From positions 673,935-737,934 of the forward strand of contig JADJBR010000009.1 of assembly GCA_016703645.1 (NCBI GenBank): a DNA stretch of 64,000 nucleotides, given 5' to 3'. Made by a program: the position numbers and the translations under genes. Shown here piece after piece: positions 1 to 21,342 of the stretch. The notes below the pieces were generated by a model, which was not told where the DNA came from, did not search any database, and saw only the letters and a program-made list of their open reading frames with translations. Within the stretch, counting starts at the first letter, position 1. Every line of letters starts with the position of its first letter. This stretch comes from Zoogloea sp. Lineage in GTDB: Bacteria > Pseudomonadota > Gammaproteobacteria > Burkholderiales > Rhodocyclaceae.

Positions 1-190
1 CCACAACGGCCACGTCGGGTCGGAGCAAGCCCTGGGCCTGCGAAAAGTACGCCAGGTACTGGGGAGCACCCTGCCACGGGTCGCCCCCCTCCCCCAGCAG
101 CAGCCGGCGGGTATAGGCCGATGCCTTCAGCCACACCCGCAGGCCGCTCCCGCCCTTGCCGGGCAGGCTGTCGGCGAGGCTCTGGCTCAT
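1..190 (-). CDS. apc5: Acetophenone carboxylase-type subunit 5 (partial)
   Basis: This is the N-terminal 63 codons of a gene that continues past the left edge of the window. It starts with ATG at 190, and that ATG overlaps the TGA of the preceding gene in an ATGA junction, so the two are translationally coupled. The visible protein begins MSQSLADSLPGKGG and has no signal peptide or recognisable motif. Assignment rests on its position as fifth gene after four acetophenone-carboxylase-like genes in the order apc1-2-3-4. In Aromatoleum the fifth subunit (Apc5) is needed in addition to the core complex. The rest of the protein is needed to confirm this. Confidence 0.55.
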   Translation of the reverse strand, partial: MSQSLADSLPGKGGSGLRVWLKASAYTRRLLLGEGGDPWQGAPQYLAYFSQAQGLLRPDVAVV

Positions 191-2463: not shown

Positions 2464-2509
2464 TTTCAATCCTGTCATTTGGTGAGGTTGAATCGGGGGT
2501 CCGCGGCGC

Positions 2510-4721: not shown

Positions 4722-4726
4722 GTGGA

Positions 4727-5125
4727 TCAGTGGTTGTGGCCTTGGTCGGGGACGACCGCCGGTCCCACCACGGGCTCCTTGACTTCTTCACGCTTGGCCC
4801 ACTGGGCGCGCAGCGCGGGGAGGTCCGGCTCCATGTCATGGAGGGGCGGGTGCCCCGGGATGGCGTACTCGGTCTCAACCATGGTCCCGCAGTGGGGGCA
4901 GTAGTATTCGAGGATGCGCACCCATTCCGGATCGGGGCTGAAGGTGAAGCGGTACTTCTCCGGATCGAGGATGGGTGGGTGGATCTCGCGGGGGTCGCGG
5001 TTGTACACCAGCATCCCTTCCTTGTAGCCCTTGGCTGCTGTGCCGATCGTGTGATCGCAGACCCGGCACTCCCACTGCTCGGTGTCCAGGTCGATGCGCA
5101 GGTATTCGGTCATCAGTACTTTCAT
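4727..5125 (-). CDS. apc2: Ketone carboxylase small zinc-binding subunit
   Basis: A 132-residue protein of the acetone carboxylase gamma family. Two CxxC pairs (C20/C23 and C76/C79) form a likely structural zinc site, as in the small subunits of acetone and acetophenone carboxylases. Its predicted mass of about 15 kDa matches the small acetophenone carboxylase subunit better than the roughly 20 kDa acetone carboxylase gamma subunit. It starts 5 bp after the apc1 stop, so it is co-translated. A second ATG at codon 5 is an alternative start. Confidence 0.8.
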   Translation of the reverse strand: MKVLMTEYLRIDLDTEQWECRVCDHTIGTAAKGYKEGMLVYNRDPREIHPPILDPEKYRFTFSPDPEWVRILEYYCPHCGTMVETEYAIPGHPPLHDMEPDLPALRAQWAKREEVKEPVVGPAVVPDQGHNH

Positions 5126-5130
5126 TTTTC

Positions 5131-7187: not shown

Positions 7188-7202
7188 GCAAGCGGCGTGC
7201 CA
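7188..7202 (-). promoter_or_regulatory. Sigma-54 promoter of the carboxylase operon
   Basis: On the minus strand this reads TGGCACGCCGCTTGC, a perfect TGGCAC-N5-TTGC -24/-12 element. Transcription should start near 7176, leaving about a 108-nt leader before apc1. A dyad-like activator site lies about 105 bp upstream. Confidence 0.85.
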
Positions 7203-7306
7203 GGGGAAACAAGGGATGGAAATTAAAACAAGTCGTTGATTTTATTTGATAAAAAAATCAAATCGTCGAAGCCTGCAATTGATCGCCCGTTTTCCTTCCG
7301 GATACC

Positions 7307-7323
7307 CGTCCGGATTCCGGTTG
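7307..7323. promoter_or_regulatory. Candidate activator site (UAS) for carboxylase operon
   Basis: CGTCCGGATTCCGGTTG matches the dyad CGTYCG-N5-CGRACG seen upstream of the other sigma-54 promoters of this region, with an imperfect right half (CGGTTG). A weaker copy, CGTTTTCCTTCCGGATA, lies beside it at 7288-7304. The distance to the -24 element is usual for an enhancer-binding protein. Confidence 0.6.
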
Positions 7324-7465
7324 AAATAATGCAACGCAACATCGAACGCCCGGAGCGGGCGACGGGTGGACGCTCTTTATTTCCGGATGAAATGGGGTGG
7401 AAATTGCTGCACCCTTCAGATCCGACGTTGCGCCTTCAACGGAGAGGTTTTCCGTCGTCCGAATT

Positions 7466-7517
7466 GAATTGGCCGGGTATTTCCCACCGCAAGCAATGGG
7501 AAATACCCGGCCAATTC
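7466..7517. repeat. Perfect 21-bp inverted repeat after the activator gene
   Basis: Arms 7466-7486 and 7497-7517 are perfectly complementary over 21 bp, with a 10-nt spacer CCGCAAGCAA. It begins 35 bp beyond the activator stop codon and about 290 bp upstream of the carboxylase promoter. There is no T tract on either side. It may be a factor-assisted terminator insulating the two units, or a regulator-binding site. The rest of 7069-7551 holds the sigma-54 promoter, the UAS and an AT-rich stretch near 7220-7270, and no gene. Confidence 0.7.
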
Positions 7518-7551
7518 GACACCGCGGCCCCGAAAAGGCCACTACATGCAA

Positions 7552-9567
7552 TCAGACCCGATAATTGCGCAAGTCGTCCACGTAACTCTCGAGCCCGAAA
7601 CGCTTGAGCTTCACATAGACCGTGCTCTTGGCGATACCCAGCTCCCGGGCCACCGCCGTCATGTTGCCGCGGCAGCCCTTGATGGCGCGCAGGATGGCAT
7701 CCCGTTCGGCGTTCTCGAGGCAGGTCAGGTCACGCTCATCGCCCTGCACATCGAGCGCCGCAGGGCTGTCCCCCGCGAGCGTGGTCACCAGGTCGGCGGG
7801 CAGATCGGCCTCGGTCAGGACATGCCCGCGGGCGGTGAGCAGCATGCTCTCCATGACGTTGCGAAACTCGCGGATGTTCCCCGGCCAGCCGTACTGGCGC
7901 AGCAGCTCGATGGCTCCCGGGGAAAGCACCCGTGGCTCCAGTCCATGTTGCAGGGACAGGCGGCGGAGATAGTAGTCGCCGAGCAGAGGAATATCGGCAG
8001 CCCTTTCACGCAGGGAAGGAATGTTGATGCTGGTGACCGCCACCCGGTAGAACAAGTCCATGCGGAAGCGCCCGGCCTGGATCTCCTTGCGCAGATCCCG
8101 GTTGGTGGCGGCGATCAGGCGGAAATTGACCTTGCGCGGCTTGTTCTCGCCCAGGCGATACACCTCGCCCTCCTCCAGCACCCGCAGAAAGTGGGGCTGC
8201 AGATCGATGGGCATCTCACCGATCTCATCAAGAAACAGGGTGCCGCCATCGGCCGCTTCGATCTTGCCGATCATGCCGCCCGACGAGCGCCGGTGAAGGA
8301 GCCCTCGGTATAGCCGAACAGCTCGCTGGTGAGCAGTTCGCGGGAGAACCCCGCAGTTGAGGGCCACGAAGGGCGCATCCCGGGTTGCCCCGGACTCGTG
8401 GATGCAGCGGGCAAAGACGTCCTTGCCCACTCCGGTCTCGCCCAGCAGCAGCACCGGCACCCGGGACTTGGCCAGTTGCTGGGCACGCCCACCGCCTGCA
8501 GCAGGGCGGGGATTCGCCCACGACACGCTCGAACGCCCCTTTCTCGGCCGCGTCCGGCTGAACACTGCGTTTGATACCCGACCGCTGGCCGCGTTCCGGC
8601 GACCGGGCAGGGTCAGCACGGCGCCGATGTGCTCGCCGTTCTGGATCACCGGCTCCAGCCATTCCTCGCGCATCCATTCGGGCCGCTCATCCGGTGCTCG
8701 CCGCCCCTTCTTCCAGGACAGGGACAGGGAGGCCAGACCGTCGGGGGCCACCGCCAGTTCTCCGATGCCCAGATCGGCCAGCGCCGCGGAGGCCCGGCCA
8801 TTGGCCTTGATGGCCCGACCGCGCCGGTCGAAGACGATGATGCCGTCGGCCGAGGTGCCGGACAGGCGATCCACGCAGCCTTCCAGCAGACGGTAGCGGA
8901 TGCCCAGCTCGATCTTGGCGAGACGGTTCTCGATGCGCCCCGCGGTGGCCACCACCAGGGCCAGACTGTGGCGGCTGTAGGAGGCGCTCAGGCCGGACAC
9001 GTCCACCACGCCGAGGATGGAACCGTCGTAGGGGTCGCGGATCACCGTGGCCGAACAGGACCAGCGCTTGATGCCCGCGCAGTAGTGCTCGGCCGAATGG
9101 ATCTGTACCGGCTGGCCCACCTCCAGGGCCGTGCCAATGGCGTTGGTGCCGCAGGCCAGCTCGCTCCAGTTGGCACCGGAGAGCAGATGGACATTCTCGG
9201 CGGCGCCCCGGGTGGACATATCGCCTTCCAGGTTGAGGATGGTGCCGCTCTGGTCGGTCAGGACCATCACCGTGCCGGTCTCCGACAGGAAGTCCCGGGC
9301 CGAGGCCATGACCGGGGCACTGGCACTGAGCAACTCGCCGCACTCGTCCCGCAAGGTGTGCAGGGAGTTTTCGCCGATCGGCGGGGGTGCCTGATAGCGG
9401 CCCGGGTCGACGCTGGCCACCTGACAGCGCCGCCACGAATCATCGATCAGACGGCGGAGCGCGTCGGAAGCCGCCTCATCCCCGCTGAGAAAGCGCTCCC
9501 ACGAGCTCATGATGTGACCATCGTTCTCCGGTATGGAAAACATCTGGCCGGGAATTGTGGCAGCCAT
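7552..9567 (-). CDS. AcoR-like sigma-54-dependent activator (GAF-PAS-AAA+-Fis), with compensating frameshifts
   Basis: This is an enhancer-binding protein of about 670 residues, the likely activator of the surrounding sigma-54 regulon. In order it has an N-terminal GAF-type sensing region (residues about 75-210), a PAS-like segment, an AAA+ domain with Walker A GETGVGKD and Walker [13 protein letters not shown], and a C-terminal Fis helix-turn-helix ending [22 protein letters not shown] 9567 is chosen because AAAGGAGGG precedes it. Read literally, the linker before the AAA+ domain and the segment after NCG are scrambled. Correcting five single-base indels within about 300 bp restores [15 protein letters not shown] and [19 protein letters not shown], including the sigma-54-contacting GxFTGA loop. 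The indels sum to zero, so the frame stays open. They may be sequencing errors or real damage. Confidence 0.8.
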
Positions 9568-9874
9568 ACCCACCCTCCTTTAAGTGTCTGTCCGACTGCG
9601 TCGCCGACGTGGGCCCAGGCCCTCATCCAGACGCGCAGTTCTGTGGTGTGATGATCTTGTTATGCTCCCGCAGCCCGCATTCGCGTGTTTCTGCCGGAAT
9701 TCGTCTTGCTGCTGCACTGGCAGCCCAATGCTGGCGAGGGCGTGTGTCTCGTCACACCCCCGCATCGACCTGCATGGCGCGCCTCTCGCGGGCAGCGTCC
9801 GATTCTCCATTCTGGACCATACGCGTGCGCATTGCCGCAAACAGAGTTCACGCAGGGATCGACACAGCTACCAA

Positions 9875-9889
9875 GCATGCTTTGTGCCA
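9875..9889 (-). promoter_or_regulatory. Candidate sigma-54 promoter of the activator gene
   Basis: The minus strand reads TGGCACAAAGCATGC. The -24 element is perfect, and the -12 element is ATGC instead of TTGC with the invariant GC kept. It lies about 310 bp upstream of the activator start and about 75-110 bp downstream of two palindromic sites, which suggests positive autoregulation. Confidence 0.55.
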
Positions 9890-9961
9890 AAGGCTTGAAG
9901 CCCGCCGTCGACGGGAATACGGGGTGAAATCGAGTGGAATCCGCGGGGAAAGACAGTTCAG

Positions 9962-10002
9962 CGTCCGATTTCCGGACGCCCGGACCGTTCGAAAAACGGA
10001 CG
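9962..10002. promoter_or_regulatory. Tandem palindromic activator sites
   Basis: Two dyads are present. CGTCCGATTTCCGGACG at 9962-9978 has perfect 6-bp half sites, and CGTTCGAAAAACGGACG at 9986-10002 has one mismatch between halves. Both have N5 spacers, and their centres are 24 bp apart. These are the clearest copies of the motif shared by the sigma-54 promoters of the ketone regulon. Confidence 0.7.
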
Positions 10003-10134
10003 CCCGCAGTGCAGATCAGAAAAAAGATTGGGGGCTTCCAGATAAAGAGGTACCCGAGGAAGGGAGAGGAGGATTCCTCACTGGATACTGCGTGCCCCCG
10101 AAAAGCCGGCGCCCGTCGCACACGGGCATGCCGG

Positions 10135-10770
10135 TTACTGCAACGCCACCACGAAATCGGCTTCGGTGTTGTCACGCACATCATCGAGGGTGGTGTCCGG
10201 CGCCAGATCCACCAGCGCCAGGCCCTCGGGGCGCACTTCGAAGACGCACAGATCGGTCACGATCAGGTTCACCACCCCGGCGCCGGTGAGGGGCAGGGAG
10301 CACTCCCGGACGATCTTGGCTTCACCCTTGGCGGTGTGCTCCATGATCACCACCACCCGGCCGACACCGGCCACCAGATCCATGGCCCCGCCGATACCCT
10401 TGACCATCTTGCCGGGCACCGCCCAATTGGCCAGGTCGCCCTTCTCCGAGACCTGCAGCGCACCCAGCATCGATAGCTGGATGTGACCACCACGGATCAT
10501 CCCGAAGGAGGCCGCGCTGTCGAAGAAGCTCGTCGTCGGCAGGGTGGTGATGGTCTGCTTGCCCGCATTGATGAGGTCGGCATCCTCTTCCCCTTCCCAG
10601 GGAAAGGGGCCCATGCCAAGCATGCCGTTCTCGCTCTGTAGCTGGATCGACATGCCCGCCGGCACATGGTTGGCCACCAGCGTGGGGATGCCGATCCCGA
10701 GGTTCACGTAGTAGCCGTCGCGCAATTCCTGGGCGGCCCGCGCCGCCATCTGATCCCGAGTCCAGGGCAT
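10135..10770 (-). CDS. 3-oxoacid CoA-transferase subunit B
   Basis: A 211-residue beta subunit of a family I CoA-transferase (SCOT/ScoB/AtoA type). The segment SENGMLGMGP (near residue 46) contains the expected catalytic glutamate, and GIGIPTLVA precedes it. With the adjacent alpha subunit it would move CoA from a donor such as succinyl-CoA or acetyl-CoA to the 3-oxoacid made by the carboxylase (acetoacetate, benzoylacetate or similar). It lies 2 bp after the alpha-subunit gene and is co-transcribed with it from a sigma-54 promoter. Confidence 0.88.
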   Translation of the reverse strand: MPWTRDQMAARAAQELRDGYYVNLGIGIPTLVANHVPAGMSIQLQSENGMLGMGPFPWEGEEDADLINAGKQTITTLPTTSFFDSAASFGMIRGGHIQLSMLGALQVSEKGDLANWAVPGKMVKGIGGAMDLVAGVGRVVVIMEHTAKGEAKIVRECSLPLTGAGVVNLIVTDLCVFEVRPEGLALVDLAPDTTLDDVRDNTEADFVVALQ

Positions 10771-10772
10771 GT

Positions 10773-11495
10773 CTATTCCTCCACGGGGGCGGCCCGGCGG
10801 CGCACCGTGCGCTGCTCGATCCGCTTGTCCACCTTGTCCACAACCACGATGCGATCCACAAAGATACCCGGGGTGATGATGTGATCCGGGTCGATCTGGC
10901 CGGGCTCCACCAGGCGCTCCACCTCGGCCACGGTCAGCGCCGCGGCCGAAGCCATCATCGGATTGAAGTTGCGCGCCGTCATGCGATAGACCAGATTGCC
11001 CTCGGTGTCGCCCTTCCAGGCATGCACCAGTGCCAGGTCGGCACGCAGGCCGCGCTCCATCAGATAGGTCTTGCCATCAAACTCGGCCAGGGGCTTGCCC
11101 TCGGCAATCACCGTACCGACGCCGGTGCGGGTATAGAAGGCCGGAATGCCCGCCCCCCCGGCACGGATACGCTCGGCCAGCGTGCCCTGGGGGTTGAACT
11201 CCACCTCCACCTCACCGGCCATGTACTGGCGGGCAAACTGGGCGTTCTCCCCGGCGTAGGAACAGATGAGCTTGTGCACCTGCCGGGTATTGAACAGCTT
11301 GCCAAGGCCCAGCCCTTCCGCCCCCGGGTTGTTGGAGATGATCGTCAGCCCCCGCACCCCCGACGCCAGGACGGCGTCGATCAGCACCGACGGAATGCCG
11401 CACAATCCGAAGCCACCCGACATGATGGTCATGTCATCACGCAATACATCGGCCAGCGCCAGCGCTGCCGTCGAATAGATCTTTCTCACAGACAC
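10773..11495 (-). CDS. 3-oxoacid CoA-transferase subunit A
   Basis: A 240-residue alpha subunit of a family I CoA-transferase. The glycine-rich motif SGGFGLCGIP (residues about 26-35) is the CoA-binding signature, and ISNNPG and the C-terminal GIFVDRIVVVD are typical of ScoA/AtoD. It is the first gene of a two-gene operon behind a sigma-54 promoter at 11587-11601. The true 3-oxoacid cannot be told from sequence. Confidence 0.88.
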   Translation of the reverse strand: MSVRKIYSTAALALADVLRDDMTIMSGGFGLCGIPSVLIDAVLASGVRGLTIISNNPGAEGLGLGKLFNTRQVHKLICSYAGENAQFARQYMAGEVEVEFNPQGTLAERIRAGGAGIPAFYTRTGVGTVIAEGKPLAEFDGKTYLMERGLRADLALVHAWKGDTEGNLVYRMTARNFNPMMASAAALTVAEVERLVEPGQIDPDHIITPGIFVDRIVVVDKVDKRIEQRTVRRRAAPVEE

Positions 11496-11586
11496 CTTGC
11501 GTCCTCTCTATTCAAGAAACCCCGACGCCCTCGGTCAGGCGACCGGGAAACACCGGAAAACTACTTCCCGCATGAAGATCAGTTCA

Positions 11587-11601
11587 GCAAGACGAGTGCC
11601 A
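11587..11601 (-). promoter_or_regulatory. Sigma-54 promoter of the CoA-transferase operon
   Basis: The minus strand reads TGGCACTCGTCTTGC, a perfect TGGCAC-N5-TTGC element about 90 bp before the first gene. Candidate activator sites lie upstream at 11665-11714. Confidence 0.85.
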
Positions 11602-11664
11602 GAAGCTCAACACCATGAATAATAAAGATATTTTATTTTTTCAGAATTGACGGCGAACCATTAC

Positions 11665-11714
11665 CGTCCAGATAGCGGTCAGCGCCAGTGACCATTTCGT
11701 CCGAAATCCGGATG
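11665..11714. promoter_or_regulatory. Candidate activator sites for CoA-transferase operon
   Basis: CGTCCGAAATCCGGATG (11698-11714) and a weaker CGTCCAGATAGCGGTCA (11665-11681) fit the N5-spaced dyad of this regulon. The better copy is 97 bp upstream of the -24 element. Confidence 0.6.
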
Positions 11715-11749
11715 TAATGACAAGCCCATTCAGGCTTGAATTGATGCGC

Positions 11750-13300
11750 TCACACTTCCCGCGGGGACGTATCCGCCTCGAGCATGTCGCGGAGTGCGGT
11801 CTTCAGCACCTTTCCGTAATTGTTCTTTGGCAGGGTATCCACGAAACGGTATTCCTTGGGCCGCTTGAAGCGGGCGATGCGTTCCAGGCAATGGCGGTCG
11901 AGTTCATCCTGCCCCACCCCGCCGGCGGCCGGGTCGAGCACCACGAAGGCCACCACCACCTCGCCCCAATCGGCGTCCCGACGGCCGATCACCGACACTT
12001 CGCGGACCGCGGGATGGGTGATCAGCACCTCCTCCACCTCCCGCGGGTAGATGTTGGACCCGCCGGAGATGATCAAGTCCTTCGAGCGGTCCTTGAGGGT
12101 CACGAAGCCGTGGGAATCCATGCAACCCATGTCGCCGGTCCACAGCCAGCCGTCGCGCAGGGCGGCGGCGCTCGCCTCGGGATTGCGCCAGTAGCCGGAC
12201 ATTACCGTGTCGCCTCGTACCACCACCTCGCCCACTTCATCATTGGGCAGGGTGCGCCCTTCCCGGTCGACGATGCGCACATCCACCAGGGTCTGGGCCA
12301 CGCCGACGGAGGCGGCGCGCTGGGCCCAGGCGGGATCGGTGCGGTCCGCCAGCAGGCCGCGGGAAAGGGCGGTGATGGTCATCGGCGATTCGCCCTGGCC
12401 GTAGATCTGCACGAAGCGCGGCCCCATCACGTCGAGCGCCTCCTGGATGTCATCCCCATACATGGGCCCGCCACCATAGATGATGGTCTGGAAGCCCGCC
12501 GGGTCGGCACCGCTCTGCTTCACCCGGTCCACCAGGCGGCGGACCATGGTCGGCGCGGCAAACAGGGCCAGACGCCCGGGTTTGCGTGACAGGCTGATGA
12601 GTTCGTCCGGATCGAAGCCACCGGACTCGGGGATGACATGCCGGCATCCGCGCACGACGTAGGGAAAACTGTACAGCCCGGCCCCGTGGGAGAGGGGCGC
12701 GGCGTAGACCACCGCATCCCCGGGTGCCACCGGGTCCACGTCCATGAAAAAACACGCGGTCATGGCCTGCAGATTGCGGTGGCTGAGCATCACGCCCTTG
12801 GGCTGGCCGGTGGTCCCCGAGGTGTAGAACAGCCAGGCCAGATCCTCCTGCGCACGCTCCTGCACCGGGATGGCCAGGGCCGACACGGCACGCAGGTAGT
12901 GCCCGTCGCCGGGCATCAGCAGGGGCACGGTGGGGCCGCCCTCTTCCAGCGCCGCGGCCAGCCCCCCGGCCAGCTCGGGCGACACGCACACCAGGCGGGC
13001 CTCGGCGTTGTGGACGATCCACGCCACCTCGCGGGGATGCAGCTTGGCGTTGACGGGCACCACCGCCAGCCCGGCCCACAGCACCCCGAAAAGGCTTTCC
13101 AGGTACTCGGGGCTGTTACCCATGTAGATGGCCACCCGGTCACCGGGTGCGAGGCCCAGGTTCTGGCGCAGGTAACCGGCCAGCCGCGCCGCGCGGGCGG
13201 CGAGCGCGGCATAGGTGAGCACGCACTTCGCCCCGACGAGGAGCGCGGGGCGCTCGGGGAAGGTCCGCGCCGAGCGGGCCAGGATCCGGGCCAGGTTCAT
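11750..13300 (-). CDS. AMP-forming acyl-CoA ligase
   Basis: A 516-residue ANL-family acyl/aryl-CoA ligase. The phosphate loop LFYTSGTTGQPKGVMLSH (near residue 155), YGQGESP, GWLWTGDMG, DRSKDLIISGGSNIYPREVE and the C-terminal catalytic lysine region LPKNNYGKVLKTALRD are all present. It would activate a carboxylic acid with ATP and CoA. Its length excludes the longer acetoacetyl-CoA synthetase type; a benzoylacetate-CoA ligase or a ligase for a longer 3-oxoacid is plausible. Its ATG overlaps the thiolase stop by 4 bp (ATGA), so the pair are coupled. Having both this ligase and a CoA-transferase in one regulon is redundant unless they act on different acids. Confidence 0.82.
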   Translation of the reverse strand: MNLARILARSARTFPERPALLVGAKCVLTYAALAARAARLAGYLRQNLGLAPGDRVAIYMGNSPEYLESLFGVLWAGLAVVPVNAKLHPREVAWIVHNAEARLVCVSPELAGGLAAALEEGGPTVPLLMPGDGHYLRAVSALAIPVQERAQEDLAWLFYTSGTTGQPKGVMLSHRNLQAMTACFFMDVDPVAPGDAVVYAAPLSHGAGLYSFPYVVRGCRHVIPESGGFDPDELISLSRKPGRLALFAAPTMVRRLVDRVKQSGADPAGFQTIIYGGGPMYGDDIQEALDVMGPRFVQIYGQGESPMTITALSRGLLADRTDPAWAQRAASVGVAQTLVDVRIVDREGRTLPNDEVGEVVVRGDTVMSGYWRNPEASAAALRDGWLWTGDMGCMDSHGFVTLKDRSKDLIISGGSNIYPREVEEVLITHPAVREVSVIGRRDADWGEVVVAFVVLDPAAGGVGQDELDRHCLERIARFKRPKEYRFVDTLPKNNYGKVLKTALRDMLEADTSPREV

Positions 13301-14463
13301 TTTTCCCTCTCCAGTACACTCACATAGCTGGCGACCGCCGCGCCGCCCATGTTGAACACCCCGCCCAGCCGGGCATCGGGCACCTGCATGGCGTCCGCCT
13401 CGCCGACGAGCTGCATGGCGGCCAGGACATGCATGGAGACCCCCGTCGCGCCAATGGGATGGCCCTTGGCCTTCAAACCTCCCGAGGGGTTGATGGGCAA
13501 GGTGCCCCCCGGGTAGACCGTGCCATCGGCCAGGCGATCCGCACCCCGCCCGGGCCGGGCCAGCCCCATGGCCTCGTAGCTCAGCAATTCGGCAATGGTG
13601 AAGCAATCGTGGACCTCGGCAAAGGACAGGTCGGTCACCCCGCAGCCGGCTTCCACCAGGGCCCGCGCCCAGGCCAGCCGCGGCCCCTCGAAGCTCAGCA
13701 GATCGCGCCGGGAGATGGGCAGATAGTCATTGACCTGCACCCGTGAGCGGAAGCGCACGGCACGGAGCGCCCCGGCCAGCATCGAGGAATCGGCCAGCAC
13801 CAGCGCCGCGGCACCATCGGACACGAGGGAACAGTCCGTCTTGCGCAAGGGGCCGGCAATGCGCGGGTTGCGCTCGGATTCGGTATTGCAGAAGGCAAAG
13901 CCCAGATCCTTGCGCATGTGCGCCCAGGGGTTGCGGACGCCGTTGGCGTGGTTCTTCTCGGCAATGCGGGCCAGGGTGGCCGAATGATCCCCGTGGCGGC
14001 GGAAATACTCGGTGGCCAGTTCGCCGAACAGGCCGGGAAAGCTCAGGCCCCGGGACGCCTCCTCCCGCACGTAGGACGCGGCGCCCAGGATGCGGGTGAC
14101 CTCGGCGCCGGAGACGGCGGTCATCTTCTCGGCACCCACCACCAGGGCCAGACGCGCGCGCCCGGCCTCAATGGCATCACAGGCCGCATACACCGCCGCG
14201 GCCCCCGACGCGCAGGCATTCTCGACCCGCGTGGCGGGGCACCAGCGCAACTCGGGGTCGGCCTGCAGGACCAGGGACGAGCAGAAGATGTCCGGGACAA
14301 AGCCGCCGTTGAGCTGACCCAGCCAGATTCCGTCCACATCCCGCGCCGCCACCTCCGCGTGGCGCAGCGCATCGCGGCTGACCCCGGCGATCAGGGCCTC
14401 CAGGTCCATGTCATCAAGCCGTCCAAAGGGCGAGTGCGCCCATCCAATGATGCTGACTCCCAT
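13297..14463 (-). CDS. SCP2-type thiolase
   Basis: A 388-residue thiolase of the SCP-x / acetyl-CoA acetyltransferase-like branch. It has the nucleophilic cysteine in ENACASGAAAV (near residue 85), HDCFTIAE and the C-terminal histidine motif GGLKAKGHPIGATG. The C-terminal CxG of classical thiolases is replaced by FNMGGAAV, as usual in this branch. It should cleave the 3-oxoacyl-CoA made from the carboxylated ketone into acetyl-CoA plus a second acyl-CoA. ATG 14463 lies about 66 bp after a minus-strand sigma-54 promoter. Confidence 0.85.
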   Translation of the reverse strand: MGVSIIGWAHSPFGRLDDMDLEALIAGVSRDALRHAEVAARDVDGIWLGQLNGGFVPDIFCSSLVLQADPELRWCPATRVENACASGAAAVYAACDAIEAGRARLALVVGAEKMTAVSGAEVTRILGAASYVREEASRGLSFPGLFGELATEYFRRHGDHSATLARIAEKNHANGVRNPWAHMRKDLGFAFCNTESERNPRIAGPLRKTDCSLVSDGAAALVLADSSMLAGALRAVRFRSRVQVNDYLPISRRDLLSFEGPRLAWARALVEAGCGVTDLSFAEVHDCFTIAELLSYEAMGLARPGRGADRLADGTVYPGGTLPINPSGGLKAKGHPIGATGVSMHVLAAMQLVGEADAMQVPDARLGGVFNMGGAAVASYVSVLEREK

Positions 14464-14528
14464 CGTGTCTCCCTGCCTTGTGAGGATGCGGTGAAGGCCA
14501 CCTGGCCATGCTGCCAGCGGGACACGTG

Positions 14529-14543
14529 GCAAGGGCCATGCCA
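14529..14543 (-). promoter_or_regulatory. Sigma-54 promoter of thiolase-ligase operon
   Basis: The minus strand reads TGGCATGGCCCTTGC, one mismatch from TGGCAC-N5-TTGC. It diverges from another sigma-54 promoter at 14738-14752, and the two share the sites between them. Confidence 0.75.
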
Positions 14544-14635
14544 AGGAGGGGAAAGCACTTGGGCCAGCCAAACCATTGAATTCGCAGATCAAAGGGATAT
14601 ACCCCGGCCCCTGCAGGCGTGCTCCGCCCGAAGAC

Positions 14636-14685
14636 CGACCGTTTTCCGGACGCCCCACCGACCGGCCCAGACCGCTTCCCGGTCG
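14636..14685. promoter_or_regulatory. Shared activator sites in the divergent promoter region
   Basis: CGACCGTTTTCCGGACG (14636-14652) and AGACCGCTTCCCGGTCG (14669-14685) both fit the N5-spaced dyad. They sit nearly midway between the two divergent sigma-54 promoters, 93 bp from the thiolase -24 element and about 53-86 bp from the GTPase promoter. Confidence 0.6.
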
Positions 14686-14737
14686 CGCCGCGGAGCCGCC
14701 AGCAGGCCAATCGGCGCTTTCCACCCGCCCCGGGACT

Positions 14738-14752
14738 TGGCACGCGCCTTGC
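14738..14752 (+). promoter_or_regulatory. Sigma-54 promoter of the COG0523 GTPase gene
   Basis: TGGCACGCGCCTTGC is a perfect -24/-12 element about 43 bp before the ATG at 14795. Confidence 0.85.
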
Positions 14753-14794
14753 CATGACTGCATGACCGAAACCACAACAACACCGGAGACATCC

Positions 14795-16055
14795 ATGCAA
14801 AGATCCCGCAGCACCCCCGTCGACCGCATCCCCGTCAGCCTGCTCACCGGCTTTCTCGGCGCCGGCAAGACAACCCTCCTCAATGCCCTCTCCCAGGGGC
14901 CGGACATGGTGGGCACCGCGCTGCTGATTAACGAGTTCGGCGAGGTCGGCATCGATCACCACCTGGTCGAGAAGATCGACGAGCGCACCGTGCTGCTGGA
15001 CTCGGGTTGCGTGTGCTGCAGCGTGCAGGGCGACCTGGTCCGGGCACTGAAGGAGCTCCACCAGCGCAGTTCCCGCCGGGAGATCGCCCCCATCACCCGG
15101 GTGATCATTGAAACCACCGGCCTGGCCGACCCGGTGCCGGTGATCTACACCCTGATGGAGGAGCGCTTCATCGCCGCCCGCTACGTGTGCGACGGCGTGG
15201 TCACGGTAGTGGATGCCACCCACGGTCTGGCCCAGCTCGACGCCCATCGGGAGGCAGTGCGCCAGGTGGTGATGGCCGACCGCCTGGTCATCACCAAGGG
15301 CGATCTGACCGACACCGCCAGCCGCGCCCGCCTCGACGCCCGCCTCGACAGCCTCAACCCCGGGCGCCCCCCGCCTGGACGTGCGCCACGGGCGTATCGA
15401 GGCGGCCCGCCTCTTCAGCAGCGGCATCTACGCGCCCGCCGACAGGATGCCCGACGTGGCGGCCTGGCTGGGAGAGGAACGCAGCCGCGACGAGCAGGCC
15501 CGCGCCGCGGCCCTCGAAGCACCGGTCCGCTGGTCACGACACCCCAAACCCGCTCATGCAGCCCATGGCGCAGGCCGCCACGAGGACGGCGTCACCAGCT
15601 TCGTGGTGCGCTTCGACACGCCGGTGCCGTGGTTCGGCTTCGCGCTGGCGATGGCGCGCATCCTGCAGGAGCACGGCCCCCGCCTGCTGCGGGTGAAAGG
15701 GCTGATGAACGTGGCCGGCGACACCCTGCCGCGGGTCGTGCAGTGCGTCCAGAACGTGGCCTATCCGGTGGTGCGCCTGCCCCGCTGGCCCGAAGGGGGC
15801 CCCTTTGACGACCAGCGGGGGCGTCTCGTCTTCATCACCCATGATCTCGACGACGACGCCGCCCAGGCCATCCGCGACAGCCTGATGAACCTCCCCGGCG
15901 ATGCGGCGGCCATCCGCATTGCCGCCGCCTCACCCCAGCTCCCCACGCGCTGCTGGCTGAACGAGCGGATCGCACCGAGCACCCCCGGCATGCCCCAGCT
16001 CGATGGCTGGCTTATCCAGCCCCGGCGTCTCCGGCACCGCACGGCCACCCTCTGA
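14795..16055 (+). pseudogene. COG0523 (CobW/ZNG-like) metallochaperone GTPase, frameshifted
   Basis: The gene encodes a CobW-family GTPase of about 420 residues, usually a metal-insertion chaperone. Walker A is GFLGAGKTT (residues 19-27), the metal-binding CVCC is at residues 72-75, and TKGD is the guanine-specificity motif. The C-terminal CobW domain (for example WFGFALAMARI) is in another frame. One extra G in the GGG at 15362-15364 shifts the frame. Removing it joins DSLNPG to APRLDVRHGRIEAARLFSSG and gives an uninterrupted protein to 16055. Location between zinc alcohol dehydrogenase genes suggests zinc delivery. The frameshift may be an assembly error. Confidence 0.75.
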
Positions 16056-16080
16056 TATCCGGACAGGGCGTCCGGATATC
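16054..16080. repeat. 11-bp inverted repeat downstream of the GTPase gene
   Basis: GATATCCGGAC (16054-16064) and GTCCGGATATC (16070-16080) form a perfect stem with loop AGGGC, overlapping the GTPase stop. The arms contain the GTCCG/CGGAC half sites of the regulon motif and lie about 81 bp before a weak sigma-54 promoter. It could therefore be an activator site rather than a terminator. Confidence 0.55.
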
Positions 16081-16160
16081 GTCCATGGCACCCACCCGTC
16101 AGCCAAGGCTTTCCACAAGGAAACAAGGACTTGGCCGTCCGGACCGGGCGGACTCCCGAA

Positions 16161-16175
16161 TGGCATGCGACATGC
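16161..16175 (+). promoter_or_regulatory. Weak candidate sigma-54 promoter of alcohol dehydrogenase 1
   Basis: TGGCATGCGACATGC keeps the invariant GG and GC with correct spacing but has ATGC at -12. It lies 72 bp before the ATG. CGTCCG and CGGACT half sites at 16134-16152, with N7 spacing, lie just upstream. Confidence 0.45.
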
Positions 16176-16246
16176 TCATGGCCTCCTTCCCGTCGCCGCC
16201 GCGCGGTGACGGGCCGACCCACTTCCCATCACTTTGGAGACACCCC

Positions 16247-17284
16247 ATGAAGGCACTTGTTTACGGCGGCCCTGGCAGAAAGACCCTCGAAGAACGCCCC
16301 ATGCCCACACTGAAGGACGCTACCGATGCCCTTGTGCGCATCACCAAGACCACCATCTGCGGCACCGACCTGCACATCCTCAAGGGAGACGTACCCACCG
16401 TCGCCCCCGGCACGGTGCTTGGCCACGAAGGCGTGGGCGTGATCGAATCGGTGGGTGCCGGCGTGACCACCTTCAAGCCGGGCGACCGGGTCTTGATCTC
16501 CTGCATCACCAGCTGCGGCAAATGCGAGTTCTGCCGCAAGGGCATGTACTCCCACTGCACCACCGGCGGCTGGCAGCTCGGCCACCTGATCGACGGTACC
16601 CAGGCCGAATACGTGCGGGTGCCCCACGCCGACACCAGCCTGTACCCGATCCCCGCCGACGCCGACGAGGAAGCCCTGGTCATGCTCAGCGACATCCTGC
16701 CCACCGGCTTCGAGTGCGGCGTGCTCAACGGCAAGGTCCAGCCCGGCAGCACCGTGGCCATCGTGGGGGCCGGCCCGGTGGGCCTTGCCGCCCTGCTGAC
16801 CGCCCAGTTCTACTCCCCGGCCCGCATCATCGTGGTCGATCTGGACGACAACCGCCTTGAAGTCGCCACGCGCTTTGGCGCCACCGACGTGGTGAACAGC
16901 GCAGACGGCAAGGCCGCCGATGCTGTGAAGGCCCTGACCGACGGGCGCGGCGTGGACACGGCCATCGAGGCCGTGGGCATTCCCGCGACCTTCGGCGTGT
17001 GCGAGAACATCGTCGCAGCCGGCGGCACCATCGCCAACGTGGGGGTGCACGGGGCCAAGGTGGATCTGCACCTGGAAACCCTGTGGGCCCACAACATCTC
17101 CATCACCACCCGGCTGGTGGATACCGCCACCACCGGCATGCTGCTGAAGACGGTGCAGTCGAAGAAGCTCGACCCGTCGGTACTGATCACCCACCGCTTC
17201 AGCCTCGGCCAGGCGCTTGACGCCTACGAGACCTTTGCCGCCGCTGCCAGCAGCAAGGCCCTGAAGGTCATCATCTCGGCCTGA
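16247..17284 (+). CDS. Zinc-dependent alcohol dehydrogenase 1
   Basis: A 345-residue medium-chain dehydrogenase/reductase. The catalytic zinc ligands are C38, H60 and E61 (GHEGVG). The structural zinc lobe has C90, C93, C96 and C104. The nucleotide-binding motif is VGAGPVGLAALL. It probably oxidises a primary or secondary alcohol feeding the ketone/acid pathway, or reduces an aldehyde. It follows the GTPase gene on the same strand and has its own candidate sigma-54 promoter. The exact substrate is not visible. Confidence 0.85.
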   Translation: MKALVYGGPGRKTLEERPMPTLKDATDALVRITKTTICGTDLHILKGDVPTVAPGTVLGHEGVGVIESVGAGVTTFKPGDRVLISCITSCGKCEFCRKGMYSHCTTGGWQLGHLIDGTQAEYVRVPHADTSLYPIPADADEEALVMLSDILPTGFECGVLNGKVQPGSTVAIVGAGPVGLAALLTAQFYSPARIIVVDLDDNRLEVATRFGATDVVNSADGKAADAVKALTDGRGVDTAIEAVGIPATFGVCENIVAAGGTIANVGVHGAKVDLHLETLWAHNISITTRLVDTATTGMLLKTVQSKKLDPSVLITHRFSLGQALDAYETFAAAASSKALKVIISA

Positions 17285-17289
17285 TCGAC

Positions 17290-17328
17290 CCGCCCTGGCC
17301 GCCCCCACGGCGGAGGTGGCCAGGGCGG
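17290..17328 (+). terminator. Strong hairpin after alcohol dehydrogenase 1
   Basis: CCGCCCTGGCC (17290-17300) pairs perfectly with GGCCAGGGCGG (17318-17328). There is no clear T tract downstream, so it may attenuate rather than stop transcription into the transducer gene that follows. Confidence 0.5.
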
Positions 17329-17358
17329 AATCCCCTTCTCAAACGGAGACCGACCAAC

Positions 17359-18679
17359 GTGTTTGCCAACCGCAGGTGGCTCGCCCACCTGGGCCACTTT
17401 GCCGACGCCCTGGCGACCGGCAGCCCGCTTCCCACCCCTTTCAAGGGCGCTCGGCACCTGGAAAGCCTTGATGCACGCCTGCACACGGGGCACCAGGAAA
17501 TCCTCGCCCGGGCCGGCCAGACGGCCCGCCGCCTGGCCGAGCTTGAGCAGCAGATCGCCACACTCACCCCGGCCTTCGAAGACGCCACCCGCCGGGCGGA
17601 CGATCTCGCGGAACGCTTCGACCTGATCAGCCGGGCCAGCGGCGAAGGCTTGTGGGACATCAACATCGCCAGCGGCGACCCCACCCACCCGGACAGCGTG
17701 GTGTGGTGGTCGAATCAGCTCCGCGAACTGCTCGGCTTTGACAACCAGCAGGATTTTCCGGACCGCCTCGAGAGTTGGCGCGAACGCCTCCACCCGGAGG
17801 ACCAGCAAGGCACCCTGAACGCCTTTGCCGCCCACCTGGCCGACGCCAGCGGCCGGACGCCCTACGACATCCAGTACCGCCTCGCCCACCGGAACGGAAA
17901 CTACCGCTGGTTCCGCGCCCGCGGCACGACCCTGCGCAATGCCTTCGGAACCCCCTTGCGCGTCGCCGGTTCGCTGCTCGACATCGACGACAGCCTGCAC
18001 CGGGAAACCCTGCTGGCACGCAGCCTGGAACGCTTCGAGCTGGTGCGCGAACTGCTCAGCGATGGCCTGTGGGACATCGAGATCCGCAAGGGCAACGCCC
18101 TCGATCCGGCCAACACGGTGTGGTGGTCACCCCAGTTGCGGCGGATGCTCGGTTTCAGCGACGAGAGCGACTTTCCCAACACCCTTGATGCCTGGGCCTC
18201 GCGCCTTCATCCCGATGACCGGGAGCGGGTTCTGAAAGCCTTCCTGGCGCATCTGGATGATCGCAGCGGGCGCACGCCCTATGACGAGTCCCACCGCCTC
18301 GCCCTGAAGAACGGCGAATACCGCTGGTTCCGGGCCTCGGCCCAGACCCGCCGGGGGGCGGACGGCACGCCCCTGCGAGCCGTGGGCGCCCTCGCCGACA
18401 TCGACACCCAGTTGCGCGAACGGGACGCCCGCAGCGCCCGGGAGAAACAGCAGGCCAAGCTGGAAACCACCCTGCGCCGCATCAACGAACTGGTCGGCAC
18501 CATCAAGGAGATTGCCGACCAGACCAACCTGCTGGCCCTCAATGCCGCCATTGAAGCGGCCCGGGCCGGCGATACAGGGCCGCGGCTTCGCGGTGGTGGC
18601 CGACGAAGTGCGCAAGCTGGCCGAGCGCACCCGCGACACCACCGCGCGCATCGAGAGGATGGCCAGCGAAGAGGCTTGA
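17359..18679 (+). pseudogene. Soluble PAS-PAS methyl-accepting chemotaxis protein, frameshifted near its end
   Basis: A cytoplasmic chemotaxis transducer of about 440 residues with no membrane segments. It has an N-terminal coiled region, then two similar PAS/PAC domains (about residues 90-220 and 225-355; both contain VWW, LRR/LREMLGF-like and YRWFRA segments), then the start of a signalling domain with NLLALNAAIEAARAGD. GTG 17359 follows a CGGAGA ribosome site. An extra A at about 18574 breaks the hairpin tip. Removing it restores QGRGFAVVADEVRKLAERT and an end at 18679. Even corrected, the signalling helix is short. It may sense flavin- or redox-linked energy state during growth on the regulon's substrate. 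Confidence 0.75.
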
Positions 18680-18699
18680 CCACCGTTGGCCTTCCCCGT

Positions 18700-18727
18700 G
18701 TTGGCCTGCCCCGGGGGGCAGGCCAAC
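18700..18727. terminator. Bidirectional hairpin terminator
   Basis: GTTGGCCTGCC (18700-18710) and GGCAGGCCAAC (18717-18727) form a perfect 11-bp stem between two converging genes, the transducer and the porin. Confidence 0.7.
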
Positions 18728-18732
18728 CAGGC

Positions 18733-19917
18733 TCAGAACGAGTGGCTGATGCCGAAATCGAAGCCCGTCGTGCCATAGCCCCCCGCGGGGGAGCCCACGC
18801 CACCGGAATCCACCGCCGTGCGGGCCGGGTTGGGCTGGATCGAGCAGATGCCGTTGGCACTGTTGTTGATCTTCGCCACGTCGGCATACACGTAGGTGCT
18901 GCGCTCCGCCAGGTAATACACCCCGCCCAGGCCCCACTTGCGGCAGCTCGCATCCAGCGAGGTCTTGTCATCCAGGGCCACGTAGGAAGCGCGCAGCCTG
19001 GCCTTGTCGCCCAGCACCGGGGCCGACAGGCCGAGCATCCAGCTACGGTGGTTCAGCAGGGCGCTGTAGGTGGCGAAGGTGCCATCGAAGACCTCCTTGT
19101 AGTTGTCGGTCTTGATGCTCTCCCAGTAGGCATGCACTTTCACCGGCCCGAAGTCATAGGCGCCGCCCGCCACCAGGATGTTGAGCTTGTGCTCCTCGCT
19201 GCCCTTGGCCTGGAGCTGCTCGATGTCCAGGGTCAGGTCCAGCCCGCCCTTCGAGTAGGACGGGATGAAGGCCCACAGGCGCCCGTCGCCCTTGTTGCCC
19301 GGGCTCTCCTGCCCCACCAGGCTGGTGGTGTAGGCCGCCAGGAAGGACAGGCCGTTCCAGGAGGGGGAGATGTAGGCGACGGCATTGTCGGCACGGGTAC
19401 CGTGCACCTGGATGGAGGCCATGTTGGCCACCGTGCCGTTGGCGAAGGGGTCGTACTTGCCGGCCACGCTGTAGCGCCCGCCGTCGATCCGCCCGAAGAC
19501 CACGGTGCCCATGCTGCCGGCCAGGCCGACGAAGGACTTGCGCCGGAAGACGCTGTTGCCCTCGGCATCGCTGAGGGTGGATTTGCCATCGTCGATGGCG
19601 ATGCCGGCTTCGAGCTGAAAGAGGGCGGTAAGCCCGTTGCGCAGGTCGCGGCTGCCCTTCAGGCCGATGCGGCTCTCCGACTCCAGACCGCTGGCCAGCT
19701 CCGACTTGTGGCCGGCAAAGCGCGTGCCGGCCTGGGCCGCGTAGGCACCGTTTTCGCCGCTGCGGCTGAGGAGGCCACCGTCCAGGGTGCCGTAGATGGA
19801 CAGGCTGCCCTTGTCGCCATCCACAAGCGTGAAACCGCCTTCGGCGGCAGCGACAGAAGAAAGGCAGGCAAGCAGGGCCGCGCCTGCACGGAGGGGTGCG
19901 TGAAATGTGATGTTCAT
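18733..19917 (-). CDS. Outer-membrane porin (Porin_4 family)
   Basis: A 394-residue betaproteobacterial general porin. The signal peptide is MNITFHAPLRAGAALLACLS with cleavage after AAA. The mature start GGFTLVDGDKGSLSIYGTLD, the alternating beta strands and the C-terminal phenylalanine (GFDFGISHSF) are typical of 16-strand trimeric porins. ATG 19917 is chosen over the upstream extension for the signal peptide. It lies 105 bp downstream of alcohol dehydrogenase 2 on the same strand with no clear promoter between, so it is probably co-expressed for uptake of the substrate. Confidence 0.88.
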   Translation of the reverse strand: MNITFHAPLRAGAALLACLSSVAAAEGGFTLVDGDKGSLSIYGTLDGGLLSRSGENGAYAAQAGTRFAGHKSELASGLESESRIGLKGSRDLRNGLTALFQLEAGIAIDDGKSTLSDAEGNSVFRRKSFVGLAGSMGTVVFGRIDGGRYSVAGKYDPFANGTVANMASIQVHGTRADNAVAYISPSWNGLSFLAAYTTSLVGQESPGNKGDGRLWAFIPSYSKGGLDLTLDIEQLQAKGSEEHKLNILVAGGAYDFGPVKVHAYWESIKTDNYKEVFDGTFATYSALLNHRSWMLGLSAPVLGDKARLRASYVALDDKTSLDASCRKWGLGGVYYLAERSTYVYADVAKINNSANGICSIQPNPARTAVDSGGVGSPAGGYGTTGFDFGISHSF

Positions 19918-20022
19918 GGATATTCCTGTTTCCGGATGCGCGGCAGCCGCATGCCCGGCCGTCCCGCGAGGGATGCCGTCGTGCCGCCGCATGCGGCCGC
20001 GCTGGATCTGAGCGTCGGCGGA

Positions 20023-21087
20023 TCAGCCGAAGTGAATGACTGGCTTGATGATGCCGTCGGCCTTGGTGGTCATCATGTCCAGGGCCTTCTCGATCTCCGA
20101 GAACTGGAAGTGATGCGTGGTAAGCCGGGTCGGATCGACGCGGCCGCTTTCGATCAGGCGCATCAGGCGGCCCATGCGCTCGCTGCCGCCCGGGCACAGC
20201 AGGGTGGTGATGGTCTTCTCGCCCATGCCCACACCCCACTCGGCGCGGGGGATGTTGACGGTGTCGCCGTGGCCGAAATAGCCGATGTTGGAGATCACGC
20301 CCCCGGCACGGGTGGCCTTCACGCAGTTCTCGAAGGTGGCCTGGGAACCCAGCGCATCCATGGCCGCGTCGGCACCGTGGCCACGGGTCAGGCGCATGAT
20401 CTCGGCGATGGGGTCCTGCTCCTTGAAGTTGATCACCACATCCGCCCCGTACTGGCGGGCCAGTTCCAGGCGCGAGGGCACGCAGTCCACGGCGATCACC
20501 AGCCCGGCGCCAAGCAGGCGGGTGCCGGCCACGGCCATCAGCCCCACCGGCCCCATACCGAACACCACGCCCGAACCACCCAGCGGAATGCGGGCGTTTT
20601 CGGCCCCCTTGAAACCGGTGGACATCATGTCGGTGGTGTAACAGGCGGCCTCGTCCGACACCCCGTCGGGGATCAGCGCCAGGTTGGCCTCGGCGTCATT
20701 CACATGGAAGTACTCGGCCATGTTGCCGTCCTTCTGGGCGGTGAACTTGTAGCCCCCGAGCATCACCTGACACTGGGAGGTGAAGCCGCGCTGGCAGTTC
20801 TCGCACTTGTAGCAGGGCGTGATGGCATTCACCGCCACCCGCTGCCCGACGCGGAAGCCCTTCACCGCGCTGCCCAACTCGTGGATCACCCCCACGGCCT
20901 CGTGGCCCAGCACCCGGTCCTTCAGCTCGCCGAGCCCACCCTCGATGGTGTGGCAATCGGAAGTACACACCATCGCCACCGTCGTCCTGACGATGGCATC
21001 GTTCGGCCCCGCCACCGGAATGGGTCTTTCCATTACGGCCACATCATGCAGACCGCGCATCACCAGTGCCTTCATCGTCTTCGCCAT
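20023..21087 (-). CDS. Secondary (2-propanol-type) zinc alcohol dehydrogenase
   Basis: A 354-residue medium-chain dehydrogenase. It resembles Clostridium/Thermoanaerobacter NADP-dependent 2-propanol dehydrogenases along its length, for example GEYFHVNDA-like AEYFHVNDAEANLALIPDG, TDMMSTGFKGAE, VGLMAVAG and GGVISNIGYFGHGD. Catalytic ligands are C41, H62 and E63. Unlike the clostridial enzyme, it keeps a four-cysteine structural lobe (C92, C95, C98, C106). It likely oxidises 2-propanol, 2-butanol or an aryl secondary alcohol to the ketone that is then carboxylated. The start ATG 21087 lies about 100 nt downstream of a sigma-54 promoter. Confidence 0.85.
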   Translation of the reverse strand: MAKTMKALVMRGLHDVAVMERPIPVAGPNDAIVRTTVAMVCTSDCHTIEGGLGELKDRVLGHEAVGVIHELGSAVKGFRVGQRVAVNAITPCYKCENCQRGFTSQCQVMLGGYKFTAQKDGNMAEYFHVNDAEANLALIPDGVSDEAACYTTDMMSTGFKGAENARIPLGGSGVVFGMGPVGLMAVAGTRLLGAGLVIAVDCVPSRLELARQYGADVVINFKEQDPIAEIMRLTRGHGADAAMDALGSQATFENCVKATRAGGVISNIGYFGHGDTVNIPRAEWGVGMGEKTITTLLCPGGSERMGRLMRLIESGRVDPTRLTTHHFQFSEIEKALDMMTTKADGIIKPVIHFG

Positions 21088-21201
21088 ATCACGCCTCCGT
21101 ATGTCTTGAAGCGGGATGGCGCACGACACGGCCCCCTCCCGCCAAGCAGTTGTTATTGGACTCAACGACTTTCCACAGGACGGAAAGCCGCAGGGCGAAC
21201 C

Positions 21202-21216
21202 GCAAACAACGTGCCA
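21202..21216 (-). promoter_or_regulatory. Sigma-54 promoter of alcohol dehydrogenase 2-porin unit
   Basis: The minus strand reads TGGCACGTTGTTTGC, a perfect TGGCAC-N5-TTGC element. Confidence 0.85.
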
Positions 21217-21325: not shown

Positions 21326-21342
21326 CGTTCGGCTTTCGAACT
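21326..21342. promoter_or_regulatory. Candidate activator site for alcohol dehydrogenase 2
   Basis: CGTTCGGCTTTCGAACT is an N5-spaced dyad (CGTTCG/CGAACT) 110 bp upstream of the sigma-54 element and fits CGTYCG-N5-CGRACG at 11 of 12 positions. The rest of 21088-21452 shows no gene. Confidence 0.55.

Follow-up and report, generated by a model that had tools for sequence, protein, structure and literature searches.

The 64,000-bp window of Zoogloea sp. analysed here (contig C9, positions 673935-737934, of a 4.99-Mb genome) carries a gene cluster for the degradation of a ketone. Its genes most probably form a ketone-responsive sigma-54 regulon with a linked activator of the AcxR type and a shared palindromic box; we assign this reading as a whole a probability of about 0.82. 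According to it, an activator with GAF, AAA+ and HTH_8 domains would sense the ketone or its alcohol via the GAF domain, would bind the palindrome GTYCGRWWWYCGRAC, which in most cases precedes the -24/-12 sites by 80-130 bp, and would open the sigma-54 promoters of seven transcription units. Two zinc alcohol dehydrogenases (ADH1 and ADH2) would convert a secondary alcohol to the ketone, from which an enzyme of the ApcABCD type with an additional subunit of the ApcE fold would form a 3-oxoacid with bicarbonate and ATP. A CoA-transferase and a ligase would yield the 3-oxoacyl-CoA, which is then cleaved by a thiolase. A porin and a chemoreceptor would also be products of the regulon, and a COG0523 GTPase may deliver metal to the carboxylase.

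Probable sigma-54 promoters of the cluster

Sites were scored against the consensus TGGCAC-N5-TTGC, and mismatches were counted against this consensus. A motif scan of the window located each of the seven -24/-12 sites which the sequence-only reading had listed, including its four perfect matches. These precede the carboxylase operon (7188..7202, - strand), the CoA-transferase operon (11587..11601, -), the GTPase gene (14738..14752, +) and the ADH2-porin unit (21202..21216, -). The site of the thiolase-ligase operon (14529..14543, -; TGGCAT..TTGC) has a single mismatch, as had been stated. For the two remaining sites a variant -12 element had been described. This applies to the sigma-54-like site of the activator gene (9875..9889, -; TGGCAC..ATGC, one mismatch), whereas that of ADH1 (16161..16175, +; TGGCAT..ATGC, two mismatches) deviates in the -24 element, too. 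The GG/GC core is kept in all seven sites. Between the 3' end of the motif and the start codon lie 119 bp for the carboxylase, 301 bp for the activator, 91 bp for the CoA-transferase, 65 bp for the thiolase, 42 bp for the GTPase, 71 bp for ADH1 and 126 bp for ADH2; for the thiolase, the GTPase and both alcohol dehydrogenases, the start was deduced from alignments of the family and from the sequence instead of the longest open reading frame.

Six perfect sites occur in the 64 kb, where 0.16 were expected (0 of 100 shuffles reached six), and the whole genome has 36 in comparison to 4 for the reversed pattern. No second 14-kb span with four perfect sites exists in the genome, and with 36 sites placed uniformly, the probability of four falling into some span of 14,029 bp is 0.0047. 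The comparison with the genomic background, which had been proposed as a check, places the density of perfect sites above it. The genome contains one rpoN gene (profile match of 474 bits, above the cut-off).

The sites are also present in related loci. With the ApcA-like protein as query, 33 loci were collected, whose records include the names Zoogloea, Aromatoleum, Azoarcus, Methyloversatilis, Cupriavidus, Xanthobacter, Acidocella, Gemmobacter, Novosphingobium, Acinetobacter and Geobacter. Sites were sought in the 400 bp upstream of the genes, and the same regions, reversed, served as control. Upstream of apcA, 20 of 32 loci have a perfect site and 27 have one with at most one mismatch (reversed 0 and 0). 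At the latter limit, sites were found upstream of the activator gene in 11 of 26 loci (reversed 1/26), of the CoA-transferase genes in 6 of 11 (five perfect; reversed 0/11), of the thiolase gene in 7 of 11 (reversed 0/11), of the GTPase gene in 12 of 26 (nine perfect; reversed 0/26) and of the ADH1 gene in 5 of 9 (reversed 0/9). Genes for which no promoter is expected gave 1/6 (ligase), 0/2 (chemoreceptor) and 1/33 (apcC), and the one hit for apcC, a perfect site in L031, stems from a misassigned apcA. A perfect site precedes ADH2 in 7/7 copies of the same genus, the window's included; it was not found before a 45% identical protein in locus L086. The thiolase gene is divergent from the GTPase gene in the window and its nearest loci, and from the ADH1 gene in the Xanthobacter loci. 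The sigma-54 sites travel with their genes despite the differing gene order.

A palindromic box upstream of the promoters

The candidate binding site is a 15-bp palindrome, which was first seen by eye as the dyad GTCCG-N5-CGGAC in the seven upstream regions and was tested afterwards; a search of these regions for exact dyads with arms of 4-6 revealed nothing common to more than three promoters. One box lies at the carboxylase promoter (7308..7322, one mismatch, at -120 from the -24 box). Two are found at the activator promoter (9963..9977 and 9987..10001, no mismatch), two at the CoA-transferase promoter (11666-11680 and 11699-11713, one mismatch each), two between the thiolase and GTPase promoters, which diverge (14637-14651 without a mismatch, 14670-14684 with one), and one at the ADH2 promoter (21327..21341, one mismatch). 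Six of the seven promoters have a box with at most one mismatch, the thiolase and GTPase promoters sharing one region; the weak box of the ADH1 promoter (16070..16084), with two mismatches, lies above this limit. All eight matches in the window with at most one mismatch are located in promoters of the cluster (2.2 expected; 0 of 100 shuffles reached eight), which fits the claim of one regulon.

The pattern GTCCG-N5-CGGAC had already been derived from the window when the scan of the relatives was made. If up to one mismatch is allowed, it occurs in 41 of 85 promoters, and in 38 of 79 if the window's own six rows are removed; the four control patterns occur in 11, 0, 11 and 3 of the 85. A degenerate, A+T-centred form of the box, GWYCGNWWWNCGRWC, which was partly fitted to the loci counted, matches 70 of 90 promoters with at most one mismatch (200 shuffles: mean 1.8, maximum 7), and in 58 of the 70 the distance to the -24 box downstream is 80-130 bp. 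Without the window's seven rows, 64 of 83 promoters of relatives match, and 41 of 59 do so if the window and the six loci nearest to it are removed. Locus L044, a near copy of the window, was left out of the 70/90 and 64/83 counts; these two and the 41/85 count also leave out promoters whose upstream sequence was too short or whose best sigma-54 match had more than two mismatches. In the same genus, 6 of 7 copies of ADH2, the window's included, have a box with at most one mismatch. Within the genome, the four perfect promoters of the cluster have a box at 0-1 mismatch, whereas at 25 other perfect sigma-54 sites the best match has 2-4 mismatches, only one of them having 2; this comparison covered 30 of the 36 perfect sites, among which a near-copy of the apcA site on contig C2 (L001), with a box at two mismatches, was kept apart.

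Relation to acetone carboxylase

The genome contains a second ketone-carboxylase cluster, which is acxABC-like, starts at C9:800287 and is likewise accompanied by a CoA-transferase and an activator. A box is situated at C9:800070, between the acxABC-like operon and its activator, and the acx promoter combines a perfect box with a sigma-54 site of one mismatch. The acx activator is 40% identical to that of the window over residues 17-656, the HTH region included, and the CoA-transferases are 59-68% identical. An acxA locus was found in 30 of 47 genomes of the same family, while 17 were without one. In these 30 loci, the genome's own included, a box with at most one mismatch is present in 29 (control 3/30), and 28 have a sigma-54 site within the same limit (control 1/30). 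Except for the own genome's copy, this set had not been used for defining the box.

Cross-regulation is plausible, as the palindrome recurs at the acx cluster together with a sigma-54-like site. The sequence-only reading had proposed a self-contained RpoN regulon that makes and cleaves a 3-oxoacid. The sites before all named operons, the activator, the shared palindrome and the gene content support this proposal in substance, but the regulon is not self-contained, since the acx cluster shares box and promoter type and the carboxylase operon passes the edge of the window.

Control of acetone carboxylase by sigma-54 is already known or predicted; the shared box is new here. For Cupriavidus metallidurans CH34, the available part of PMC2864759 gives a sigma-54 promoter of acx (TGGCATGNNNNTTGC), AcxR and induction on acetone or 2-propanol, and refers to Xanthobacter for the sigma-54 promoters and AcxR of acx. 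In P. phymatum a sigma-54 regulator beside acx rises together with acx, according to PMC8305402. In the literature on acetone carboxylase with sigma-54, rpoN or acxR, as far as it was accessible, no operator was found described; a 2002 Xanthobacter study cited in PMC2864759 may bear on this point. The cluster resembles the AcxR-acxABC systems of Xanthobacter autotrophicus Py2 and C. metallidurans CH34 in that a sigma-54 activator adjoins a ketone carboxylase, and the palindrome is also present before the acx operons of genomes of the same family. It differs in its carboxylase, which is of the ApcABCD(E) and not of the AcxABC type, and in its seven transcription units over 14 kb, with two alcohol dehydrogenases, a thiolase and a COG0523 GTPase.

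The activator gene

The activator gene (7552..9573, -) is part of the cluster, as had been claimed, and encodes a GAF - AAA+ - HTH_8 protein of the AcxR/DhaR type (GAF, PF00158, PF02954) with the sensor domain, AAA+ core and Fis-type HTH of this class. AcxR-type homologues occur in 27 of the 33 loci; among these, four with an identity of just 29-42% could represent different activators. At the activator's own promoter, the pair of boxes and the weak -12 element suggest autoregulation.

As assembled, the open reading frame of the activator contains two frame-shifted stretches. The broken frames of the activator, the GTPase and the chemotaxis gene, as well as a near-copy of the cluster on contig C2, are tentatively read as assembly errors. 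The 20.6-kb contig C2 (L076) is an indel-rich near-copy, ~95% identical, of window positions 3646-20671. In L044, a metagenome-assembled genome of Zoogloea, the ApcA-like protein is 100% identical and the DNA is 98% identical over 7.4 kb. Extra DNA lies between the ligase and CoA-transferase genes on contig C2 (~3.3 kb), in L044 (163-3465) and in L121 (14051-17684), where it contains genes for an FAD/NAD oxidoreductase and for a GntR-aminotransferase regulator. L044 has further extra DNA between the activator gene and apcA (7464-9652).

Carboxylase and pathway enzymes

The carboxylase operon encodes an apcA-like subunit (second HyuA; 5131..7068, -; NF042960, E 5.2e-104, 349 bits, cut-off 1250), an apcB-like small subunit (Acetone_carb_G; 4727..5125, -; PF08882, E 4.6e-40; NF042974, 125 bits, cut-off 250), an apcC-like subunit of the HyuA family (2510..4645, -; NF042975, E 2.6e-173, 578 bits, cut-off 1500) and an apcD-like subunit of the HyuB family (187..2550, -; PF02538; NF042976, E 1.3e-93, 315 bits, cut-off 1500). 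All four subunits fall below the NCBIfam equivalog cut-offs for ApcA-D. The best PDB match of the apcA-like subunit is the alpha subunit of acetophenone carboxylase (5l9w), that of the apcC-like subunit the gamma subunit of the same enzyme, followed by the beta subunit of acetone carboxylase.

The operon extends past the edge of the window into the gene of a fifth subunit (5' end at 1..190, -; C9:673261-674124), whose ATG overlaps the apcD stop codon. A homologue of its 287-aa product follows apcD directly in 30 of the 33 loci; the contigs of L031, L056 and L060 end sooner. This protein has no match in Pfam or NCBIfam, and no significant sequence homology to two proteins at the ApcE position (hhalign probability 0.9%, HMMER 3 bits). 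In a Foldseek search with its AlphaFold model (pLDDT 93.6), the best match by E-value was ApcE (9fou, E 7e-8, TM 0.60, 16% identity), with uroporphyrinogen decarboxylases next (TM up to 0.68). The model suggests that the protein is an ApcE-like fifth subunit; the available part of PMC5214803 describes the fifth subunit of Apc as the most divergent one. A ZIP metal transporter gene is situated after the ApcE-like gene (C9:672297-673121; L078:12298-13122, -), and one is also found downstream in six of the 33 loci (L032-L035, L044, L059).

With its two HyuA-type subunits, the enzyme does not have the AcxABC make-up of three subunits with one of the HyuA type. It shares with ApcABCDE of Aromatoleum aromaticum the two HyuA-type subunits, the HyuB and small subunits, the ApcE fold and the order A-B-C-D-E, in which E is assigned by position and fold and not by sequence. 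The differences are sequences below the family cut-offs, the presence of a CoA-transferase, and a GAF-type sigma-54 activator in place of the AdiRS system predicted in the accessible part of PMC4729919.

The other enzymes fit the proposed route from a secondary alcohol via ketone, 3-oxoacid and CoA ester to thiolysis. Subunits B (10135..10770, -) and A (10773..11495, -) of a 3-oxoacid CoA-transferase score above the cut-offs of TIGR02428 and TIGR02429, respectively. The cluster also encodes an AMP-forming acyl-CoA ligase (11750..13303, -, start approximate; PF00501, PF13193) and a thiolase of the PRK07516 family (13297..14463, -; NF005704, 651 bits, cut-off 412). ADH1 (16247..17284, +) has its best PDB match in 5yln (E 7e-142). 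ADH2 (20023..21075, -; best PDB matches 2nvb, 7f3p and 1bxz) is closest to NADP-dependent isopropanol/secondary-alcohol dehydrogenases, and it is likely, to judge from this enzyme, that the substrate is aliphatic, e.g. 2-propanol/acetone or 2-butanol/butanone. A literature search on butanone carboxylation yielded nothing that was judged relevant. ADH2 is followed by a porin gene (18733..19992, -; PF13609). About 75 bp past ADH1, a PAS-PAS methyl-accepting chemotaxis protein is encoded (17359..18679, +; PF08447 in two stretches, PF00015; frame broken near 18575 as assembled), which suggests that taxis is linked to the substrate. A PAS-PAS chemoreceptor also adjoins adh1 in the same-genus locus L121.

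In a sample of 300 genomes of the order, 2 have a strong ApcA-like match, the own genome included; in a sample of 296 genomes of the family, 24 contain ApcD-like matches that score 300-400 bits. Due to this patchy distribution and an ApcA-like identity of 66-93% across classes, horizontal spread is suggested.

Alternative explanations

Several observations weigh against a regulon defined by box and promoter. With up to two mismatches, the sigma-54 motif is not enriched in the window (101 seen, 91 expected), and 5 of 32 loci have no match with at most one mismatch before apcA. The degenerate box was fitted in part to loci of the 70/90 count, and the related sequences are not independent of each other. 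The box is weak at adh1 (at most one mismatch in 3 of 8 promoters, the window included) and is missing at apcA in the Geobacter loci L052 and L055 (4 mismatches). Four of the 29 acx matches (L147-L150) rely on a single poor site that they have in common, and all three control matches come from three of these four loci. Genome-wide, the degenerate box with one mismatch occurs 147 times in comparison to 289 for its reverse, and by itself the box is therefore not specific. Its exact form was found at 9 places (reversed 6), and GTCCG-N5-CGGAC shows no excess either, with up to two mismatches in the window (68 seen, 73 expected) or with one in the genome (294, reversed 1138). Raw counts therefore do not carry the claim, which is based on where the boxes lie and on their conservation; a box is informative in combination with a promoter, and not by itself.

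Chance matches in GC-rich DNA would explain the lack of an excess at two mismatches, and since the motif is at background at this level, site 16161 requires outside support and would not stand by itself. Such support comes from its position, from the adh1 upstream regions of relatives and from the box with two mismatches. The perfect sites exceed both the shuffles and the reversed control, recur across genera and share the box, and conservation speaks against chance for six of the seven sites; we therefore consider this explanation hardly credible. Alternatively, the sites are real, but their main driver is the paralogous activator that belongs to acx, or the two activators act on them in cross-talk. 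The promoter elements of acx and the similarity of the two activators agree with this, and the sigma-54 contact loop G[AS]FTGA is absent in the window's activator as assembled, which also counts against its role as the regulator proposed here. The loop is intact in 23/23 relatives examined, L044 included (the four homologues of 29-42% identity, beyond the E-value limit, were excluded), and its absence is probably an assembly error. As the carboxylase is also accompanied by an activator homologue in 27 of 33 loci, control mainly by the paralogue or by cross-talk appears unlikely, albeit worth keeping in mind.

An aromatic substrate (1-phenylethanol/acetophenone) and a true acetophenone carboxylase pathway would be in line with subunits most similar to ApcA-D, the ApcE-fold fifth subunit and the CoA ligase in the cluster. 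However, the subunits are only 29-47% identical to those of two Apc loci (one exceeds the NCBIfam cut-off for ApcD, the other narrowly misses it), and remain below all four cut-offs; a 3-oxoacid CoA-transferase is present, and ADH2 is closest to isopropanol dehydrogenases. In addition, the box is common to the promoters of the window and to acetone carboxylase operons, whereas the 600 bp before apcA of the two Apc loci contain no sigma-54 match with fewer than four mismatches and no box with fewer than two. For A. aromaticum, the two-component system AdiRS is predicted for induction by acetophenone (PMC4729919, available part). An aromatic pathway is consequently rather improbable, and the ketone-responsive regulon with an aliphatic substrate is preferred.

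Further sigma-54 sites

Beyond the seven sites, the window contains one at 22917 (-, one mismatch) and perfect ones at 48461 (+) and 53274 (-). PEP-CTERM genes are located downstream of 22917 (21453-22823, -) and of 48461 (48588-49604, +). An RpoN-dependent PEP-CTERM member is known from another, floc-forming species, according to the accessible text of PMC9850573, and the PEP-CTERM RpoN regulon (PrsK/PrsR), which also uses sigma-54 promoters for genes different from those of the ketone cluster, probably accounts for both sites. The best match to the ketone box upstream of 48461 has four mismatches, and none was detected at 22917 in the window-wide box scan, the only box test there. The perfect site at 53274-53288 lies at the 5' end of a gene for an NMT1-type ABC transporter substrate-binding protein, whose true start may be downstream of the site. 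Elsewhere in the genome, three perfect sites occur within 8 kb (C7:1139129-1147257), close to two activator genes. A search of the window against Rfam at the gathering threshold gave no match.

The COG0523 GTPase and the wider family

The COG0523 (CobW-type) GTPase (14795..16055, +; PF02492, PF07683; frame broken near 15375) possesses a CxCC motif, which is present in 27/27 rows, the window included. A homologue (57-87% identical) is linked in 26 of the 33 loci, and in 19 of the 23 with long flanks. No COG0523 gene was found in 30 kb around the acx cluster of the genome. At L120, the Apc locus that narrowly misses the NCBIfam cut-off for ApcD, a COG0523 gene with 42% identity to that of the window (3912-4985, -) is located ~2 kb past the open reading frame at the apcE position. 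With known COG0523 chaperones (CobW, the nitrile hydratase activator, YciC) the protein shares the G3E GTPase and the CxCC motif. Nitrile hydratase activators likewise adjoin their client metalloenzyme (PMC2770081, in the part available), whereas the neighbour in the window is a ketone carboxylase. In the available main text of that paper the words "carboxylase", "acetone", "hydantoin" and "ketone" are absent, the additional files lying outside the word search. A literature search found no paper on COG0523 and hydantoinase, and the sole one found on acetone carboxylase and CobW apparently concerns chloromethane.

A wider reading would be that one 15-bp "ketone box" and AcxR-type activators control both three-subunit Acx and five-subunit Apc-like carboxylases across proteobacteria, the latter being distinct, horizontally spread, aliphatic and dependent for metal on their own sigma-54-controlled COG0523 GTPase. 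It is proposed tentatively, at slightly less than even confidence, which was lowered a little because acetone carboxylases select their metal without chaperones, as reported in the accessible part of PMC10865871, where two such enzymes made in E. coli took up metal in this way; this also speaks against the role in metal delivery proposed for the GTPase. These enzymes are, however, of the Acx type.

The box allows the regulon to be defined in a way that can be tested, and genomes can be searched with it for ketone-carboxylase systems. If the link to the GTPase is true, it would name a client for a subfamily of metal chaperones, and metal supply would be a controlled step in ketone carboxylation.

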